Assembly (NCBI RefSeq): GCF_015207035.1
Contig: NZ_JADEXQ010000062.1
Span: forward strand, 1-38,171
Length of the DNA: 38,171 nt
Direction: 5' to 3'
Source of the DNA: Romeriopsis navalis LEGE 11480
Lineage (GTDB): Bacteria; Cyanobacteriota; Cyanobacteriia; Leptolyngbyales; Leptolyngbyaceae
In this document: in pieces, positions 2,005 to 29,061 of the stretch
How the letters are laid out: each line of letters starts with the position of its first letter
Position numbering within the stretch: position 1 is the first letter of the stretch
Position numbers and translations under genes: made by a program
Notes under the pieces: generated by a model
What the model saw: the letters and a program-made list of their open reading frames with translations, nothing else
What the model was told of the DNA's origin: nothing
Database searches by the model: none

Positions 2005-3357
2005 ATGGGTAAAAACACCGTCATTACAGTGAAATCACTCAGCCAACATCAGGATTTAATCCTTGATGGTTCCATGCTAGGTGGGGGACTGTCCGGGAAT
2101 ATTCGGATACCCGGAGATAAATCAATTTCCCATCGATCGTTGATGCTGGGGGCATTAGCGCAGGGTGAGACGATCGTGCATGGCCTACTTTTAGGTGAAG
2201 ATCCTCGCAGTACGGCTGCGTGTTTCCGCGCAATGGGTGCGGAAATTACGGAGTTGAATACGGAGGAAGTACGAATTCAGGGAATTGGCTTAGGCAATCT
2301 ACGTGAACCGGCGGACATTCTTGATGCGGGTAACTCCGGTACAACCATGCGGTTGATGTTAGGAATTTTAGCATCCCATCCCGATCGTTTTTTTAGTGTG
2401 ACGGGTGATAGCTCATTGCGTACGCGCCCGATGTCCCGCGTGATTCAACCCCTGACGAAAATGGGCGCAACGATTTGGGGTCGCGAAAGCAATAAACTAG
2501 CACCACTGGCAATCCGTGGCCAGCATCTCAAACCGATGCACTACCATTCCCCGATCGCATCAGCGCAGGTGAAATCCTGCATCTTGCTGGCGGGTCTCAT
2601 GACTGAAGGCCAAACGACGGTGACAGAACCGGCCCTATCAAGAGATCACAGCGAACGGATGTTGCGGGCTTTTGGGGCACAGGTAGATGTTGATCCCGAA
2701 ACAAAATCGGTCACGGTGACGGGCCACCCAACGCTAACGGGGCAAACGGTGGTGGTGCCGGGGGACATTAGTTCAGCGGCATTTTGGTTAGTGGCCGGGG
2801 CGATCGTTCCAGGGTCCGATCTAACTGTCGAAAACGTAGGGGTCAATCCGACGCGCACAGGCGTGCTGGAAGCATTGGCAATGATGGGTGCCGATATTAC
2901 GTTAGAAAATCAGCGGGAAGTCGCGGGTGAGCCGGTAGCTGACTTGCGTGTCCGTCACGGCAAACTTAAAGCCTGTAAAATTGCGGGGGATATTATTCCG
3001 CGTTTGATTGATGAGATTCCAGTGTTGGCGGTGGCAGCCGCTTTTGCGGAAGGCACAACAGTCATTAAAGATGCGGAAGAACTGCGGGTGAAGGAGAGCG
3101 ATCGAATCACCGTCATGGCCAAGCAACTGAATGCAATGGGGGCGAGTGTGTCAGAGTTGCCCAATGGCATGGAGGTCACCGGCGGCAGGCCACTCCACGG
3201 AGCCGAAGTTGATAGCTTTACGGATCACCGGATTGCGATGAGTTTGGCGATCGCCGCGCTGATGGCAAAAGGCACTACAACCATTCACCGGGCGGAAGCC
3301 GCATCGATTTCCTATCCGACGTTTGTGGAGACTTTAGAGCAGGTGATTGGGAGTTGA
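2005..3357 (+). CDS. aroA: 3-phosphoshikimate 1-carboxyvinyltransferase (EPSP synthase)
   Basis: Sixth step of the shikimate pathway: transfers the enolpyruvyl group of PEP to shikimate-3-phosphate. 450 residues. Visible signatures are PGDKSISHR (37-45) for substrate binding, [14 protein letters not shown] (107-120), [28 protein letters not shown] and the C-terminal [13 protein letters not shown]. The overall pattern ([35 protein letters not shown]) is that of the class II, CP4-like branch rather than the E. coli branch. The position equivalent to CP4 Ala100 is Gly112 here. The first about 25 residues are not conserved in the family, so a start at Met24 (base 2074) is possible; the upstream ATG is kept for want of a better ribosome site. 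Monocistronic, reading away from the gene at 1304-1789. aroB is in the same window but 11 kb away. Confidence 0.96.
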
Positions 3358-10811: not shown

Positions 10812-10982
10812 GCTGGAACTAACCCGGCACATCAGCCCCTGTGGCAACCCCGACGGCGATCGGGCTTTGGCAACTCCGAATGGCGAAATGAAAGCGTTAC
10901 TCTCGGTCAATGCTTGGGCATTCTGGAAATGAAAGCGTCTGCAACCTCGCAGGTGCCAAGTCATTTAAGATTGTGGGGACGC

Positions 10983-12653
10983 ATGAATCTTGATTCCCAG
11001 CCGAAACTCAAGATGTTGATCGTGGACGATGAGCCAGATAATCTTGATCTGCTTTATCGCACGTTCCGCTTAGAGTTCCAAGTCCTGCGGGCCGAAAGTG
11101 CCCCAGCTGCCCTAGAGCTGCTTGATCGTCATGGCGAAGTGGCGATTATTATTTCGGATCAGCGCATGCCCGAGATGCTGGGAACCGAGTTTCTCAGTCG
11201 TACGGTCGAGCGTTTCCCCGATACCATTCGGATGGTGTTAACCGCTTACACCGATGTCAAAGACCTGGTGGATGCAATTAACTCCGGTAAAGTCTTCAAA
11301 TACATTACGAAACCGTGGACCCAGCAGCAGCTCCAAGCAGTTGTGCGGCAGGCCGCTGAAACTTATAAATTGGTCAAACAGCGGACCGATAAGTTACAGC
11401 AAGCCCTCAGGCGTGAATCAACATTCAATAGCGTCACCACGGCCATCCGTGAGTCGATTGACTATACGAGTATGCTGCCGACAATCGTGCAAGCGATCGG
11501 GCATACCTTCCAAGCCAGCTGCGGACTGCTCCATACCGTTGAAGAGGGAGAACGCTCACCCCAACCCTTGCTCTATGCGAGTGATGATTGTGAAGCCGAT
11601 CTCGCCATCTTGAACGAAAGCATCATGTCGACGATTGATTTAGTCGTCACAGACCGGCGAACTGAAGTGCAGGCGATCGAGCAAGATAACCAAACCTGGC
11701 ATCATCTCGTTTTGCCACTCCGCTATCAGAATGATTTGCTGGCCGTTCTCAACTTGGTCCGTGCTGGCACCGAGAATATTTGGACACCAGCCGACATTGA
11801 TCTGATTCAAGGCGTAATTGAGCAAGCGGCCCTTGCAATTTCCCAAGCCAAATTGCATCAACAAACTCGCCAACAAGCACAGCAGATGCGGTCAGAGCTG
11901 GCAGTTGCGCGCCAAATCCAAAGCAATTTACTCCGCCAAAACATCCCGGAATTTGCGTCAGCAAAAGTTCAGGCTTGTTGCCATCCAGCCCGCGAAGTCG
12001 GCGGCGACTTCTTTGAAGTCTATGATCACCCCCAAGGCGATATCTGGGTTGCGGTGGGCGACGTATCGGGGAAAGGGGTACCGGCAGCGCTCTTCATGGC
12101 AAGTGCAATTTCCGTACTCCGGCGTGAAATGGCACAGGAAATATCTCCGCATCCCGAGGATGTAATGCGTAGCCTGAATCAAACGCTGATGGAGGATCTC
12201 GTTAGTACCAACTGTTTCATTACAATGGTACTGGCGAAATTTAATCCCACCACGGGCGAATTGTTCTACGCCAATGCTGGACATTTGTATCCCATGATTT
12301 GGTCCGCCGCTGAGCTCAGTCAGACGGAAGAACCGGAATATCTCATGCGCCGGGGGATTCCACTAGGCATTCTTCCGACCTGGAAAGGTGAATCAGGCAA
12401 CCGCATGATGCAATCCGGTGAATTTTTCCTACTCACTAGCGATGGCCTCACAGAAGCTTCAATCCGCATGCCAGTAGCTGTCGGAGCCGCCAATGCCGCT
12501 GATGATTTCGTCCAACTTCAACAGTCAGGCCTATGGCAGTTATTACGCGAGCAAAATCAGGAGTTTGACCTGAAGAATTTACTCGAAACGATTCGACAGC
12601 ACACTGTTGCTCAAGAAGACGACCAAACTATGCTCTCTCTGGAGGTTCTTTAG
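10983..12653 (+). CDS. Response regulator with GAF and PP2C (SpoIIE/RsbU-type) phosphatase domains
   Basis: 556 residues from the ATG at 10983, which follows GTGGGGACGC; the frame is open further upstream to a TTG at 10914. Residues about 8-125 are a receiver domain (LIVDDEPDN, phosphoacceptor Asp59 in SDQRMP, VLTAYTD, KYITKPW). Residues about 150-305 form a GAF domain, followed by a coiled helix (QQTRQQAQQMRSELAVARQI). The rest is the PP2C-like phosphatase: GGDFFEVYDH, VAVGDVSGKGVPAALFMA, NQTLMEDL, YANAGHLYP, LLTSDGLTEA and a final EDDQTMLSLEV, with the metal-binding Asp residues present. Such enzymes dephosphorylate an anti-sigma-factor antagonist (STAS protein) when the receiver is phosphorylated. 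The next gene, two bases downstream, is the expected counter-acting kinase. Confidence 0.93.
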   Translation: MNLDSQPKLKMLIVDDEPDNLDLLYRTFRLEFQVLRAESAPAALELLDRHGEVAIIISDQRMPEMLGTEFLSRTVERFPDTIRMVLTAYTDVKDLVDAINSGKVFKYITKPWTQQQLQAVVRQAAETYKLVKQRTDKLQQALRRESTFNSVTTAIRESIDYTSMLPTIVQAIGHTFQASCGLLHTVEEGERSPQPLLYASDDCEADLAILNESIMSTIDLVVTDRRTEVQAIEQDNQTWHHLVLPLRYQNDLLAVLNLVRAGTENIWTPADIDLIQGVIEQAALAISQAKLHQQTRQQAQQMRSELAVARQIQSNLLRQNIPEFASAKVQACCHPAREVGGDFFEVYDHPQGDIWVAVGDVSGKGVPAALFMASAISVLRREMAQEISPHPEDVMRSLNQTLMEDLVSTNCFITMVLAKFNPTTGELFYANAGHLYPMIWSAAELSQTEEPEYLMRRGIPLGILPTWKGESGNRMMQSGEFFLLTSDGLTEASIRMPVAVGAANAADDFVQLQQSGLWQLLREQNQEFDLKNLLETIRQHTVAQEDDQTMLSLEVL

Positions 12654-12655
12654 GA

Positions 12656-13093
12656 ATGAAGACCGAACTCCATGTTCCTAGCGACATTCGCTTTTTGATG
12701 CTGGCAGAAGATTGGCTTCTGGGCAGTCTGAAGTTAGAAGTTGGCGAAACCGTTGACTGGTCCAAACAAGCCGCCCGGTTACGCCTTGCTTTAGCTGAGG
12801 CCTACTCCAATGTTGTGCGTCATGCTCACCGTGAACAACCCCATTTACCCGTCGTCATTTGTTTAGAAATTGACAACCAGGAAATGGCACTCGAAATCTG
12901 GGATCGCGGCGCGGGATACAACCCGGATGCCTATAAAGCACCCTCCCCAGAAGACCGCCAAGAACACGGCTACGGCTGGATGATTCTCAACCGCCTGATG
13001 GATAGCGTGGAATATCAGTCCCAACTTGATGGTCGTAATTGCCTCAAACTAGCGGCTAATCTACCAGAAGTTGCAGTCACAGAAGCAGCTTAA
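12656..13093 (+). CDS. RsbW-like anti-sigma/serine kinase (HATPase_c)
   Basis: 145 residues with the GHKL ATPase fold: N-box RLALAEAYSNVVRHAH (about 43-58), LEIWDRGAGYNPD as the G1 box, HGYGWMILNRLMDSVEY as the G2 region. There is no membrane span. Family members bind and inhibit a sigma factor or other target and phosphorylate a STAS antagonist; the phosphatase encoded just upstream would reverse that. Its ATG is two bases after the upstream stop and is served by GGAGG inside the previous gene (12641), so the two are translationally coupled. No STAS protein or sigma factor is encoded in the window, so the cognate partners must be elsewhere. Confidence 0.9.
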   Translation: MKTELHVPSDIRFLMLAEDWLLGSLKLEVGETVDWSKQAARLRLALAEAYSNVVRHAHREQPHLPVVICLEIDNQEMALEIWDRGAGYNPDAYKAPSPEDRQEHGYGWMILNRLMDSVEYQSQLDGRNCLKLAANLPEVAVTEAA

Positions 13094-14075: not shown

Positions 14076-14435
14076 ATGGCTAGGGCAGGAAAAGCATTAA
14101 AACGTGTATTAACACGGTACGGAATTAGCCAGAACCAACTGGCAACAACAATGGGTATTGATCGCTCCAATGTGAGTCGCTGGGTCAGTGAGAGTCGCGA
14201 TCCGTCAGCCGAAGCGGTCGCTCAAATTAAGCAAGCATTAGTTCACTTACAGCCCCCTGCGGCCGAGGATTTTGTCCAATTCTACTTATATGAAGGGATG
14301 GAAGAAGCTAAGACAATCCCAGCGACGCCAACGTCGGAGCATGGAACCAACATTGGCATTCAACCTTCGTCTCAAGTTACAACACCGACAACCTTAACGC
14401 CGGTTCCGAGTCGGCATCCAGGCTTTGTGATGTAA
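14076..14435 (+). CDS. Short XRE-type helix-turn-helix regulator
   Basis: 119 residues. Residues 5-60 are a Cro/C1-type HTH: LTRYGISQNQLATTMGIDRS, NVSRWVSESRDPSAEAVAQI, with the recognition helix around RSNVSRWV. The remaining about 60 residues are Pro/Thr/Ser-rich (TIPATPTSEHG, TTPTTLTPVPS), disordered, and end in HPGFVM. No sensor domain is visible, so the target and signal are unknown. The ATG has GGTGAG 11 bases upstream. It is preceded by 982 bases without a gene and followed by a strong hairpin terminator shared with petL on the other strand. Confidence 0.85.
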   Translation: MARAGKALKRVLTRYGISQNQLATTMGIDRSNVSRWVSESRDPSAEAVAQIKQALVHLQPPAAEDFVQFYLYEGMEEAKTIPATPTSEHGTNIGIQPSSQVTTPTTLTPVPSRHPGFVM

Positions 14436-14466: not shown

Positions 14467-14505
14467 AAAATGCCTCTCGATGCAGCTTGCATCGAGAGGC
14501 ATTTT
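14467..14505. terminator. Bidirectional rho-independent terminator between the XRE gene and petL
   Basis: A perfect 18-bp stem (14467-14484 paired with 14488-14505) around the three-base loop GCT. The stem begins with AAAA and ends with TTTT, so each transcript direction would have a U tract. It lies 31 bases after the XRE stop and 35 bases beyond the petL stop on the opposite strand, so it can end both convergent transcripts. Confidence 0.93.
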
Positions 14506-14540: not shown

Positions 14541-14636
14541 CTAAATCAGCTTCACTGCTCGCAAACCAAACATCAAGCCAACTGCCAAGCCAAAGGAAAC
14601 AGCCAGGAACAAAAAGAAAGCAACTACAGTACCCAT
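14541..14636 (-). CDS. petL: Cytochrome b6f complex subunit PetL
   Basis: 31 residues, on the minus strand from ATG (14636-14634) to TAG (14543-14541). The peptide starts MGTVVAFFLFLAVSFGLA, forms a single membrane helix, and ends GLRAVKLI. This architecture (short hydrophobic start, GLAVGLMFGLR middle, basic residues then KLI at the end) matches PetL as I recall it from filamentous cyanobacteria such as Mastigocladus. PetL is a one-helix subunit that stabilises the b6f dimer in the thylakoid. A GGGAG ribosome site lies eight bases upstream of the ATG. It is transcribed from the aroB side, divergently from aroB, and ends at the shared terminator. Another small membrane protein is the alternative. 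Confidence 0.72.
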   Translation of the reverse strand: MGTVVAFFLFLAVSFGLAVGLMFGLRAVKLI

Positions 14637-14833
14637 CAGAAATTCTCCCAAAATAAGCTCTATAGAAAACTATACAGAAAGGTTGAAGCAAGGGAAATAT
14701 TTCTCAACCAAAGTTCTCCAATATGACATAGAAAATTACGGCTAGCTTGGCGCGATCGATGACTCCCAAAGCGACAGACGCAACCATATGCCAAAATGAA
14801 ACCGGTTCGAAATTCTGCATCCCGTCTTCCACC

Positions 14834-15973
14834 ATGCCTGCTTCTAACTTAAATCCCGCGGCGAACGCCGCACAAACCATTACGGTTGAACTCCCCCAGA
14901 ATCCTTACAATATTTCGATCGCCAACGGTAATCTTGCAACGATCGGAACGGCGATGCAGAATCCCCAACTGAAGCTGGGACGAAAGGTTTTAGTTGTATC
15001 CAACCCAACGATTTTCAAACACTATGGCCAAATCGTCGTTGCCGCGATCGAAGCTGCCGGGTTTAGCGTCAATTCCTGCATTTTGCCAGCCGGTGAACGC
15101 TATAAAACACCGGCTTCCATTCAGAAAATCCACGATGCCGCCCTCGAAATGCGCTTGGAACGGTCATCGACAATGGTGGCACTCGGCGGCGGCGTCATTG
15201 GCGATATGACCGGTTTTGCTGCGGCAACTTGGCTGCGCGGCATTAATGTCATTCAAGTCCCGACGAGCCTGCTGGCCATGGTGGATTCGTCGATCGGCGG
15301 CAAAACCGGCGTGAATCATCCCAAGGGGAAAAATTTGATTGGAGCATTTCATCAGCCGAAGCTTGTTGTCATTGATCCGACAGTCCTTAAAACCCTGCCA
15401 GCTCGAGAATTTCGGGCGGGTATGGCCGAAGTCATCAAATATGGGGTGAATTGGGATAAAGCCTTATTTGAGCATATGGAAGCAGCTAAGCGCCTCGACC
15501 AGCTGCGTTACGTCAGCGAAGCGCTGCTCAACACCATCATCACCCATTCCTGCCAAGCTAAAGCCGTCGTCGTCGCCAAGGATGAAAAGGAATCAGGATT
15601 AAGGGAAATCCTCAACTATGGCCATACGATCGGACATGCGGTCGAAAGTCTCACGGGGTATCGTGTCGTCAATCATGGCGAAGGGGTTGGTATCGGCATG
15701 GTGGCCGCCGGGGAGATTGCCGTCGAAATGGGCTGGTGGAGCCGTGAGGAGTGCGATCGCCAAAATATTTTGATCGAGAAATGTCACCTTCCCACCCGAT
15801 TACCCGCCATCATTGACATCAGTGCCGTCGTACCGAAGCTACAAACAGATAAAAAGGTGAAAGCGGGCAAAGTCCGATTTGTTCTCCCCAAACAAATTGG
15901 CACAGTTGCAGTTACCGACCAAGTCACACCAGAAATTATCCAACCCGTCCTTCAACAACTCGCATCAGCTTAA
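14834..15973 (+). CDS. aroB: 3-dehydroquinate synthase
   Basis: Second step of the shikimate pathway, DAHP to 3-dehydroquinate, using NAD and zinc. 379 residues from the ATG at 14834, close to the normal 360. Motifs: [86 protein letters not shown] and [10 protein letters not shown], covering the nucleotide- and zinc-binding residues. Upstream in-frame starts exist (ATG 14759, TTG 14747), but the added residues ([16 protein letters not shown]) are not typical of the family. No clear Shine-Dalgarno precedes any of them. Divergent from petL; the promoters for both should lie in 14637-14833. The gene stands alone, with a small hairpin (16001-16025) after it. Confidence 0.95.
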
Positions 15974-23685: not shown

Positions 23686-26600
23686 CTAATCCACGATCGC
23701 CGGTTTCATATCAATCGGCAGCTCGATTATAAACTGCGTTCCGACATCCGGCTGTGACACGCAGAAAAACCGCCCCTGATGCCGCTGCTGCACAATTTGA
23801 TAACTCACAGCCAAGCCCATACCCGAGCCTTTCCCAACTGCTTTAGTGGTGAAAAATGGATCGAAAATCTTGGCCTGAAGCGGCTCTGGAATACCACTAC
23901 CATTATCCGCAATCACAATTTTGATCCAGTCGGCATCCAGTCTCGATGTAATAATCCGAATCTGATCGACTTGCTCCACCTTCGCTCGGGCGACATCTTC
24001 AAACGCATCAATCGCATTGGCAATCAAATGCCAAAAAACCTGATTCAATTCTGCCGGATAGCAATTGACTGCAGGCAGTTCACCATATTCACGCACCACC
24101 TGCAATGTGCGTCCTGAAGCCTGCGTGCCCAGTCGATGTTTCAGAATGGCTAAGGTACTATCCAGTCCGGCATGAATATCGACGAACTTAAATGCGGCTT
24201 CATCCAAATGGGAAAAGTTTGATAGTGATCGCACAATTTCCTGAATTCGCTCCGCTCCAGTCGTTGCCGACTTCACAACCTTTTGTAGATCAATGGTGAC
24301 AAACTCTAAGTCAACCGCATCAATTTGTTGTTTTATGGCGATCGGCGGATTCGGATACTGTGCTTGATAAAGTTGAATCACAGCCAATAAATCATGCATA
24401 TAGCGATTGCAGTAGCCCATATTGCCGTGAATGAAATTGACCGGATTGTTAATTTCGTGGGCAATGCCCGCCACCATCTGGCCTAACGCCGACATTTTCT
24501 CACCCTGAATAATTTGGGCTTGCGCCTGTTGCAACGCCACTAAGGTCTGCTCCAGCGCTTGCGACGTACGCTCTGCCTCGTGATACAGCTGGGTGTTTTC
24601 AACCGCAATCGCCGCCTGGGAATAAAAACAGAGAATCTTCAACAATTCCACACAATCCTGGGTGAATAGCTCCCGGATCACGGAATTTTCCGCATACAGA
24701 ATGCCGACCAACCGCCCCCGACTCAGCAAGGGCATACAAAGCATACTTGCCGGTTTCCGCTGTTCCCCATAGGCGGACTCCATAATCGCCGCATCGGTCA
24801 AGACCGTTTCCTGCGTACGGACGACATACTGAATCAACGGAATTGGCAGCTGCTGACTCTGACACAGTGGAAAAGGTTGGAGTGATTCCACGGCCCCATC
24901 GAGATATTGGGCCACAATTTCAATCTGATCATTTTGCTTCAGTAGTAAAGTGGCCTTATCCGCCCCAGAAGCCTGCACCACAATTTCAATTAACTTCCCT
25001 AAAAGTTGATCAAGTTCCGTCTCTCGATCGATCGCCTGCGATGCCTTTAAAATCGCACTGAGGCTAAACTTACCAGAAGCTAAACTTTTGCCCATAATCG
25101 TCTGGTGCACTGACCCCACGGTCATCAAAGAATCCTGAAAAGCCACAGTACTTTGAGCCGACTTGAGAATGGGGGCAAGTAATTCCGGATATTGCTCAAC
25201 CAAGCTTTGGACTTTCGCCGCAGCCCCCCACTGGGCATAGCAATAATAAGCTTCTTGCAGATAGCCAGCGGCAACTTTCGTTTTGCCCCAACCCAGATAG
25301 AATTTTGCCGCCAGTTCATTGGCGAGGGCCTGCTCCTGCACGTAACCATATTCCTGCGCCCCGGCAATCGCCAAATCATAGTAATCAACCGCCATGAGCT
25401 TTTGATCGAAAACACGACAGCGTTCGGCTTCGACTAACTGCAATTTATGCTGCATATTCATAGGCGCGTAGACCGCCCACTGTTTGAGCTTCCGACAGCT
25501 TTGATCGATCTGTTTTAACAGTTGCTGCGGCTGCGCTGATTGCGGGTAATATGCTAACCGCGCCAAGGCAGCAAACCACCAATATTGCTGAACTTCCGGC
25601 AATCCAGCCAAACCACGCAAATGCTTTTCGCAAACCGGAATTGCGGCAATTGCCCGATCAATATCGTCAAACCAATACGCCAACATGAGTTGAAATAGAT
25701 GGGCAAAACAGATCCCGGCTGCATCATGCGCCGCCCACAACAATGGCAAATCCCGATCGTGATTAAATATTTCACCGTTTAACCACGCTGGATGCTCACT
25801 TTTGTCTAGCAAATTGAGCGTAAATTGGTGACTCACAGCCATATGTCGTAAGGCGGTCTGCTGCTTCAGTTGCACCAAGGTTTCGGTATGAATCGCGTAC
25901 TTCTGGGCCATATCGGCCAGATCACTGCCAATGGCGATCATATTGCGCAGATAACACAGCACTAACCATGTAGCATATTCGGTATTGCCATCTTCTAGTG
26001 CTACGTGATAGCTCTCGAGCAGGGGCACAACACCGGTCTTGAGATGCGCTTGCATCGGCTGCAACATGCCATAAAACACGTAGTCCACACCCGCTTGCAC
26101 ACGTTTTGTATGGGGCCGCAGTAAACGCCGCGCTAACTGACCAAATTCATAGCCCGCCGACACATCCCCCATCACCGCACTTAAGATCGTGCCGTAGGCG
26201 CAGTAAGTCCCAGCGGAAAGTGAGGTATTGCCGTACTTCAGCGTCAACTCTACTTCTTTTAAAACTGATAGCGCATACAAATTGGGATTCAACAAACAAG
26301 TCGCGGAGCGCAGAATACTCATGATCGATAGACTCGCCTGCACTTCCGGCTCACGCATCATCGGCAAATCCGCTAATGCCGGAATTGACCGTCGCCAAAG
26401 TAATTGCTTAATCTTCAAAAAACTGAATAGCACCCGAGCACGACTCGGCTTTTGATGCAGCTTCACCCCCAGTTTCGTCAGCACAACATGGCCCGTCTGC
26501 ACGGCCTCCGCTAACTGATTTTGAAAAATATGCGATCGAATTTTCACCTCATAAACTTTGACTTGCTCCAGGGGCGTCATTGCCGCTGTTAAAACACGAC

Positions 26601-29061
26601 TAATTAAATCCTCAGCGCAGGCAAAATCGCCGCCTAACGATGCCACCTCAGCCCCTAATTCATACAATTCACGCACCAAAGAAGGATGCTGTTGCCACGC
26701 CTCCGGCCCCAACAGCGTCCAACCCTGCTGACAATAGGCCAACGCTGTTTGATAAGCCGTAGCCGCTTTGGCTTTATCCGCAGCCCACAGATTCAACTCG
26801 GCCAACTCACATTTGGCGGCCACTGTCTCCAGCCGATTCGCCCCCAAATTCAGACTATTGACCACATCAAATAACCGATTATCCAATTCTTGCGGGGACA
26901 AACGTTGAAGTAATAACTGACCAATTTGCAAATGGGTCGCTTGCTTTTCCGCCGTGGGAATCAAGGCATAAGCGGCCTGCTGTACTCGATCGTGCAAAAA
27001 CCGATAAGTCACCACACGATCGGCAGGCGCAGCAGCAGCGTCATGATCATCCACTTGAAAAAATTTATAGGTTGCGTCTAAGGGCACAATCAATCCCGTT
27101 TCTAAGGCGGGCCAGATATCAGTGGCGGTCGCCGCGGTGGACTGCTCGGCCACAATGGCTAAAGTGCTTAGATCAAACTGCGCACCAATACAAGCGGCCA
27201 ACTTCAACATCGTTTGGGTCGCAACCGGCAACTTCTGCAGCTGGGCAGTCATAAACTCCACAACATCATCGGTGAGGGTCAGCGATCGCACCGCAGCAAT
27301 ATCGTAATTCCAGGTGCCCATCGCCCAATCAAACTGCATCAAACCATCTTGATGCAGACTTTTCAGCAACTGTGTCGTAAAAAACGGATTGCCCTGTGTC
27401 TTTTGATTGATTAAAGTCGTCAGCGGTTGTGCCGCCCGTAATTCACAGCCCAATGTCGCCGCGACAAGCTGATTTACCTGGTCTGGCTGTAATGGTGACA
27501 ACGTCAGAGTCTGCACGGTGGAACGAGCCTGGCGCAATGCATCCACCGTCAGCAGCAAGGGGTGCGCCGACGAGACTTCATTATCCCGGTAGGCCCCCAG
27601 GATAAGTAAATACCCTGTTTCTTGCATCAATAATTGCACTAACTTCAGCGAAGCCATATCGGCCCACTGCAAGTCATCAAGAAAAATCACCAACGGATGT
27701 GTCTGACTGATAAACACCTGAACAAATTTTTGGAACAGACGGTTGAAGCGATCGGAGGCCGCACTTCCGGATAATTCCGCCACCGCGGGTTGCGCCCCAA
27801 TCACTTGCTCCAGTTCAGGAATGACCTCAATAATCAACTGGCCCGCATCCCCTAAAGCCATCAAAATCTTGGCGCGCCATTGGGCCAATTGCGACGCACT
27901 TTCACTCAAAAGCTGGCCCATCAAGCGCCGAAATGCCTGCAAAAAACCGGACAGTGGCACATTTCGCTGTAATTGATCGTACTTCCCTCGAATAAAATAC
28001 CCCCGCTGCCGGGCAATCGGTTTATGAACTTCGTTCACAACTGCCGTTTTACCAATCCCGGAGAATCCCGCAATTAACATTAATTCGGTGTCACCCGTCG
28101 CCACCCGCTCAAATGCGGCCAGCAAGCTAGCGACTTCCGTTTCACGACCATAGAGCGTTTCGGGAATTAAGAATCGATCGCGACGATCGCGCTGGGCCAG
28201 CTCAAACTCACAAATTTCACCCGTTGCCTGCCAGTTGGCCAAACATAACTCCAAGTCATGCTGCAAGCCCAATGCACTCTGATACCGATCTTCGGCATTC
28301 TTCGCCATTAACTTCTCGATCAGTTTGGACAGCATCACTGGCACCTGCGGATTCACCTGATGTGCCGCATCTGGACATTTAGCAAGGTGGCAATGCACCA
28401 TTTCCATCACATCTTCGCGCTGAAATGGCACTTTTCCTGTGAGCAAATGATAAAACGTGCAACCGAGTGAATAAAAATCACTCCGATAATCAACGCCCCG
28501 GTTCATCCGTCCAGTTTGTTCCGGCGACAAATAAGCCAACGTGCCTTCCAAAACGCTCGGATTGACAACCTCCGGCATCTCGCGCGGCAATTGGGTGGCA
28601 ATCGAAAAATCAATCAAATAAACTTGCTGCGTCGTGGGCGCAATAAGAATATTGGCCGGCTTAATATCTTTATGAATAATCCGATTTTCGTGGAGACGCG
28701 CAATCGCCGCCGCTAACTGAATCGCTACCGCGAGAAAATCCGCAATTGTCGCTGGATTAGCACTGGCCGGCGACATTGCCTCCAACAACTGCACACCGCC
28801 CACATCTTCCATCACTAACATATAGCCCTGACGATAAGGCTCCAGCGCTAACGGTGTGAGCACACCGGCAATATCCAGCGACTGTGTAATCACAAACTGA
28901 TTGCGAAACTGGACTAGCTCCGCAAAACTCGGATATTCGTCATGCAGTAATTTCAGGACAACAGCCACTTGATCCGCCACTCGCACTGCCCGATAGACCA
29001 ACGTCCGTGATCCGGTATATATCGGCTGTATATGCTGATAGCCAGGCAAGTCAATTGTCAT
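23686..29061 (-). CDS. Giant hybrid Ser/Thr kinase - AAA ATPase - GAF - histidine kinase
   Basis: 1791 residues, one uninterrupted frame. Residues 1-280: Ser/Thr kinase with Lys37, HKDIKPAN (130-137), DFSIA (151-155; DFS instead of DFG, which I believe is usual in this family) and GTLAYLSPEQTGR. Residues about 300-620: AAA-type ATPase/NTP-hydrolysing module with Walker A GFSGIGKT (332-339) and Walker B LVIFLDDLQWAD. Residues about 620-1340: helical TPR-like region. Residues about 1370-1515: GAF domain. Residues about 1515-1791: histidine kinase with His1535 in AHEINNP, NAIDAFEDV, DNGSGIPEP and TTKAVGKGSGMGLAVS. No membrane span. The ATG is preceded by a weak ribosome site. Such proteins are known in cyanobacteria, but their input signals are mostly undefined. 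The C-terminal half is paralogous to that at 31823-34006. Confidence 0.95.
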   Translation of the reverse strand: MTIDLPGYQHIQPIYTGSRTLVYRAVRVADQVAVVLKLLHDEYPSFAELVQFRNQFVITQSLDIAGVLTPLALEPYRQGYMLVMEDVGGVQLLEAMSPASANPATIADFLAVAIQLAAAIARLHENRIIHKDIKPANILIAPTTQQVYLIDFSIATQLPREMPEVVNPSVLEGTLAYLSPEQTGRMNRGVDYRSDFYSLGCTFYHLLTGKVPFQREDVMEMVHCHLAKCPDAAHQVNPQVPVMLSKLIEKLMAKNAEDRYQSALGLQHDLELCLANWQATGEICEFELAQRDRRDRFLIPETLYGRETEVASLLAAFERVATGDTELMLIAGFSGIGKTAVVNEVHKPIARQRGYFIRGKYDQLQRNVPLSGFLQAFRRLMGQLLSESASQLAQWRAKILMALGDAGQLIIEVIPELEQVIGAQPAVAELSGSAASDRFNRLFQKFVQVFISQTHPLVIFLDDLQWADMASLKLVQLLMQETGYLLILGAYRDNEVSSAHPLLLTVDALRQARSTVQTLTLSPLQPDQVNQLVAATLGCELRAAQPLTTLINQKTQGNPFFTTQLLKSLHQDGLMQFDWAMGTWNYDIAAVRSLTLTDDVVEFMTAQLQKLPVATQTMLKLAACIGAQFDLSTLAIVAEQSTAATATDIWPALETGLIVPLDATYKFFQVDDHDAAAAPADRVVTYRFLHDRVQQAAYALIPTAEKQATHLQIGQLLLQRLSPQELDNRLFDVVNSLNLGANRLETVAAKCELAELNLWAADKAKAATAYQTALAYCQQGWTLLGPEAWQQHPSLVRELYELGAEVASLGGDFACAEDLISRVLTAAMTPLEQVKVYEVKIRSHIFQNQLAEAVQTGHVVLTKLGVKLHQKPSRARVLFSFLKIKQLLWRRSIPALADLPMMREPEVQASLSIMSILRSATCLLNPNLYALSVLKEVELTLKYGNTSLSAGTYCAYGTILSAVMGDVSAGYEFGQLARRLLRPHTKRVQAGVDYVFYGMLQPMQAHLKTGVVPLLESYHVALEDGNTEYATWLVLCYLRNMIAIGSDLADMAQKYAIHTETLVQLKQQTALRHMAVSHQFTLNLLDKSEHPAWLNGEIFNHDRDLPLLWAAHDAAGICFAHLFQLMLAYWFDDIDRAIAAIPVCEKHLRGLAGLPEVQQYWWFAALARLAYYPQSAQPQQLLKQIDQSCRKLKQWAVYAPMNMQHKLQLVEAERCRVFDQKLMAVDYYDLAIAGAQEYGYVQEQALANELAAKFYLGWGKTKVAAGYLQEAYYCYAQWGAAAKVQSLVEQYPELLAPILKSAQSTVAFQDSLMTVGSVHQTIMGKSLASGKFSLSAILKASQAIDRETELDQLLGKLIEIVVQASGADKATLLLKQNDQIEIVAQYLDGAVESLQPFPLCQSQQLPIPLIQYVVRTQETVLTDAAIMESAYGEQRKPASMLCMPLLSRGRLVGILYAENSVIRELFTQDCVELLKILCFYSQAAIAVENTQLYHEAERTSQALEQTLVALQQAQAQIIQGEKMSALGQMVAGIAHEINNPVNFIHGNMGYCNRYMHDLLAVIQLYQAQYPNPPIAIKQQIDAVDLEFVTIDLQKVVKSATTGAERIQEIVRSLSNFSHLDEAAFKFVDIHAGLDSTLAILKHRLGTQASGRTLQVVREYGELPAVNCYPAELNQVFWHLIANAIDAFEDVARAKVEQVDQIRIITSRLDADWIKIVIADNGSGIPEPLQAKIFDPFFTTKAVGKGSGMGLAVSYQIVQQRHQGRFFCVSQPDVGTQFIIELPIDMKPAIVD

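Follow-up and report, generated by a model that had tools for sequence, protein, structure and literature searches.

A petL gene of 31 codons divergent from aroB in Romeriopsis navalis LEGE 11480, and its neighbourhood in related genomes

The open reading frame

On the minus strand of a 38,171-nucleotide stretch of the R. navalis genome (the window, meaning the whole stretch analysed here), 31 codons lie between a gene for an XRE-type regulator and aroB. Are they the petL gene of this genome, for subunit VI of the cytochrome b6f complex, and is their place between these neighbours a peculiarity of the window? The frame is present exactly as a sequence-only reading had described it (14541-14636): it codes from 14636 down to 14544, closes with TAG at 14541-14543 and specifies the 31 residues MGTVVAFFLFLAVSFGLAVGLMFGLRAVKLI, with a C-terminal KLI. 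An in-frame TTG upstream would give an alternative version of 36 residues; the ATG is favoured because of its spacing from the ribosome binding site and because the relatives start at that codon. That site, GGGAG, was also found as claimed, at 14645-14649 on the minus strand, 8 nt 5' of the ATG, and its assignment, read from the sequence, is consistent with the correctly spaced GGAG, GAGG or AGGA in 50 of 54 petL loci versus 113 of 864 control windows. Mismatches at the three codon positions (0.41, 0.29 and 0.64 over 1431 pairs of petL sequences) follow the pattern of a coding gene, and the peptide aligns without gaps with those of 27 relatives, A18, L30 and I31 being invariant in all 28 rows.

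Identity of the peptide

The peptide has the properties expected of PetL: about 31 residues, the C-terminal K-L-I and a single membrane helix, the last predicted from its hydrophobic stretch. It scores 43.3 bits against the Pfam PetL model (PF05115; cut-off 30.1), matching profile positions 1-31 of 31, and 48.2 bits against the NCBIfam PetL equivalog (NF008824; cut-off 25), the sole NCBIfam family listed for the frame. Its three best matches among solved structures are 2zt9_E (E 2.9e-4) and 1vf5_E (E 1.1e-3), which are the PetL chains of b6f structures, and 7r0w_M (E 0.011), deposited as Cytochrome B6, which we take from its sequence to be PetL as well. Even the best of these similarities is modest, on account of the small length of the peptide; the solved chains have 31-32 residues and, like the window peptide, one hydrophobic stretch each, the alignments run nearly end to end, and two of the three chains end in KLI. 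Thus the curated cut-offs of both family collections and the solved chains bear out the identification as PetL. The window peptide departs from the prevailing residues of its relatives at position 7 (F7 in place of Y) and at positions 12-13 (A12-V13, the relatives mostly having G and then G or A); neither difference is of evident functional weight.

The match also exceeds chance: a PetL model built from 53 relatives, with the row of the window left out, gave the frame 44.7 bits, as against 5.8 bits for the next frame of the window and 9.2 bits for the best of 54,169 frames in 40 shuffled windows. It is therefore very unlikely that the frame encodes some other photosynthesis subunit with one helix, or an unrelated small membrane peptide, whose likeness to PetL is one of composition alone; such peptides are all short and hydrophobic, and one unrelated Pfam model did match weakly (E 0.27, under its cut-off), but the PetL equivalog has no NCBIfam competitor here, the genes for PetG, PetN and PetM are located elsewhere in the genome, the place beside aroB is conserved, and the KLI ending is common to the relatives. 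Less credible still is a decayed or unexpressed copy with a functional version elsewhere, for, even though a second copy could fall in a gap of the 251-contig assembly, nothing is damaged in the frame, its start, the ribosome site, the promoter-like block or the conserved ending, no second PetL exceeds the cut-off, and the assembly is listed as 99.5% complete.

The genome was also searched for the combination named beforehand as fatal to the assignment, namely no PetL homology and a better petL elsewhere; in the profile search the window frame is the sole match over the cut-off, with one other match below threshold at 13.1 bits, and a protein search with PetL returned the window frame alone. 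The gene, which is single-copy, is an ordinary petL gene and had been named correctly. The further suggestion that annotation had overlooked it is doubtful, because NF008824 is passed easily and petL is annotated in Synechocystis; the gene concerned, ssl3803 of Synechocystis sp. PCC 6803, belongs to the same family as the window gene and is annotated as petL with 32 residues (PMC5126843).

Retention of the petL-aroB pair

The orientations are as claimed: petL diverges from aroB and converges with the regulator. The aroB gene, for 3-dehydroquinate synthase, occupies about 14834-15973 on the plus strand and scores 391.2 bits against the TIGR01357 equivalog (cut-off 305). Its listed frame has 408 aa from a TTG start, but the ATG at 14834 is probably where translation starts, since conservation in relatives begins mostly from about residue 45; the part conserved in relatives begins near 14876. 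The window also holds aroA (EPSP synthase; 2005-3357; 437.7 bits against TIGR01356, cut-off 287.25), which is on the same strand of the contig as aroB and about 11.5 kb away from it.

The breadth over which the petL-aroB pair is retained is the sole non-routine part of this analysis. In all 29 of the relatives fetched first, which were the best-scoring (L002-L030), petL stands head to head with aroB. By the Pfam model (E 0.01), 70 of 97 genomes, that of R. navalis included, have PetL. In 54 of the 70, petL diverges from aroB, the gap to the conserved part of aroB being 55-485 bp; in 15 it lies away from aroB, and the remaining genome (G040) yielded no close aroB. G035 has a second Pfam match, a weak one, which does not adjoin aroB. 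Searching upstream of aroB in the 38 stretches without a Pfam-placed petL recovered the gene in three (G024, G031 and G088) and gave none in the other 35. With a profile built from the 28 aligned rows, PetL is present in 78 of the 97 genomes, and the pair occurs in 57 of the 76 genomes that have both PetL and a close AroB, spanning 15 of 29 families by a hand count from genome labels. The other 19 do not show the pair, and one of them, G044, is undecided, aroB sitting at a contig end; in the two genomes without a close aroB (G034 and G040), less than 300 bp separate petL from the end of its contig in the direction in which aroB would be expected. The check proposed by the sequence-only reading, conservation of the frame upstream of aroB in related genomes, comes out positive for the majority of the relatives covered.

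A set of 80 named aroB loci drawn from GTDB genomes, partly shared with the 97-genome set, gives a similar picture: 54 of them have petL on the other strand no more than 1.5 kb upstream, and in 51 of these the distance is within 500 bp. Loci with the pair include those of Myxacorys, Microcoleus, Planktothrix, Okeania and Trichodesmium. Another 26 loci, Calothrix and Moorena loci among them, have no upstream petL, and these misses are partly unobservable, some loci holding less than 500 bp of upstream sequence (63 bp in L130, a miss). A full-text literature search for petL together with aroB, dehydroquinate synthase or gene order yielded no paper naming the pair, which is weak evidence of absence given the thin coverage of subscription papers; gene-neighbourhood databases presumably show it.

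As the three recovered genomes illustrate, the neighbourhood can lead to petL when profile searches fail. The PetL of five genomes (G034, G042, G066, G071 and G080; loci L192, L194, L203, L206 and L207) was missed by Pfam at E 0.01 and found with the cyanobacterial profile, weakly in G042, G066 and G080; distant PetL may lie outside the reach of the Pfam model.

The sequence-only reading had called the place of petL unrelated to the other b6f genes. That is literally true of the five b6f genes searched for, petL being on contig C62 and petA on C78, petD on C139, petG on C55, petN on C57 and petM on C98, with the reservation that these are contigs of a draft assembly, from which true distances to petL are not readable. 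Its implication of oddness does not stand, since the usual place of petL is beside aroB.

What keeps the two genes together is a separate matter. The shikimate pathway, which aroB feeds, leads to chorismate, a precursor of plastoquinone, which is the substrate of the b6f complex. Selection for co-regulation through the shared intergenic region, balancing quinone supply with the make-up of b6f, is nevertheless an unlikely reason for the retention of the pair, and the link between b6f and the supply of quinone precursors is speculation. Shared regulation and mere descent can each preserve a head-to-head pair, and the present data do not separate the two. If the genes were co-regulated, the pair would link expression of b6f to the synthesis of quinone precursors.

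A promoter-like element upstream of petL

A promoter-like element resembling a -10 box, GTATAGT, lies at 14669-14675 on the minus strand, 33-39 nt 5' of the petL ATG. The same word occurs in 29 of 54 stretches upstream of petL, versus 0.58 expected from shuffles. In a re-count with uniform start finding for the petL genes, 31 of the 57 aroB-linked petL genes had exact GTATAGT in the 120 nt upstream, the distance to the ATG being mostly 32-41 nt, as against 0 of 57 for the reversed-word control. The word also precedes 4 of 21 petL genes that are unlinked to aroB or undecided (G018, G029, G034 and G040) and 2 of 56 in the named loci, the reversed word being found in none of the 21 and none of the 56. 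The four genomes just named all belong to the family of the window, and the block is mainly a trait of that family; in other families a similar stretch, TTCAATAG, is often seen at a comparable distance, as judged by eye. In G018 and G029 the word goes with petL rather than with aroB, because petL there is truly away from aroB.

We read GTATAGT, from its sequence and position, as the putative -10 part of a promoter belonging to petL itself. No -35 partner is evident for it, and a sigma-70 consensus scan of the window listed no promoter for petL. A longer promoter motif, TATAGTTTTGTTA, allowed three mismatches, was discarded as not discriminating (31 of 57, versus 20 of 57 for the reversed motif).

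The hairpin between petL and the XRE gene

Between petL and the convergent XRE gene, a hairpin at 14470-14502 is flanked by A and T tracts. Its perfect 15-bp stem (-26.1 kcal/mol, z -7.6; none of 200 shuffles folds as well) makes it the joint strongest 3' hairpin among the 54 petL loci folded, in agreement with the very strong closing hairpin that had been claimed. Because A and T tracts flank the stem, it is likely to act as a bidirectional terminator. A simple terminator scan of the window did not list it, probably because the stem absorbs the T run. That the hairpin is a dispersed repeat was considered and rejected: its 17-base half-site occurs only here in the genome, once per strand.

Proposed working of the gene

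As a whole, the locus is almost certainly the petL of its genome, with a putative promoter of its own, a predicted short leader, a single-helix peptide and a probable hairpin stop. We infer expression, transcription start and termination, and carry function over from PetL studied elsewhere. Most likely, transcription would begin from a promoter in the petL-aroB intergenic region, at GTATAGT, giving a leader of about 25-30 nt; GGGAG would then direct translation of the membrane peptide, which by analogy would join the small subunits with one helix that surround cytochrome b6 and subunit IV, and would help to stabilise b6f, without being essential; and the hairpin would end petL transcription and also stop that of the oncoming XRE gene. 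A b6f complex is available for PetL to join, because petA, petD, petG, petN and petM all exceed their cut-offs in the genome.

A study by Schneider et al. (2007), to judge by its title, reportedly bears on PetL function in Synechocystis PCC 6803. The Synechocystis b6f core is described as ringed by four single-helix subunits, PetL among them (PMC9342900). PetG, PetL, PetM and PetN went undetected in a proteomics study, which points to their small size, hydrophobicity and trypsin resistance (PMC9958174).

Other neighbours in the window

The XRE-type helix-turn-helix protein (119 aa; 14076-14435, plus strand; 32.1 bits against PF01381 HTH_3, cut-off 23) is a local neighbour of petL. A homologue stands beside petL in one relative only (G009, locus L074), in the same orientation and 74% identical over 76 aa. 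The XRE gene as a standing partner of petL was rejected, since among 180 loci it accompanies petL only in those of the window itself (L001, L032 and L033) and in L074; members of its family occur in 39 of the 97 genomes, mostly at other places.

Elsewhere in the window, 10914-13093 encodes a response regulator that carries GAF and SpoIIE-type phosphatase domains, with an anti-sigma-like HATPase_c_2 protein directly after it, possibly a partner-switching pair. A single chain of 1791 aa, encoded on the minus strand at 23686-29061, combines Ser/Thr kinase, AAA_16 ATPase, GAF and histidine-kinase ATPase domains.
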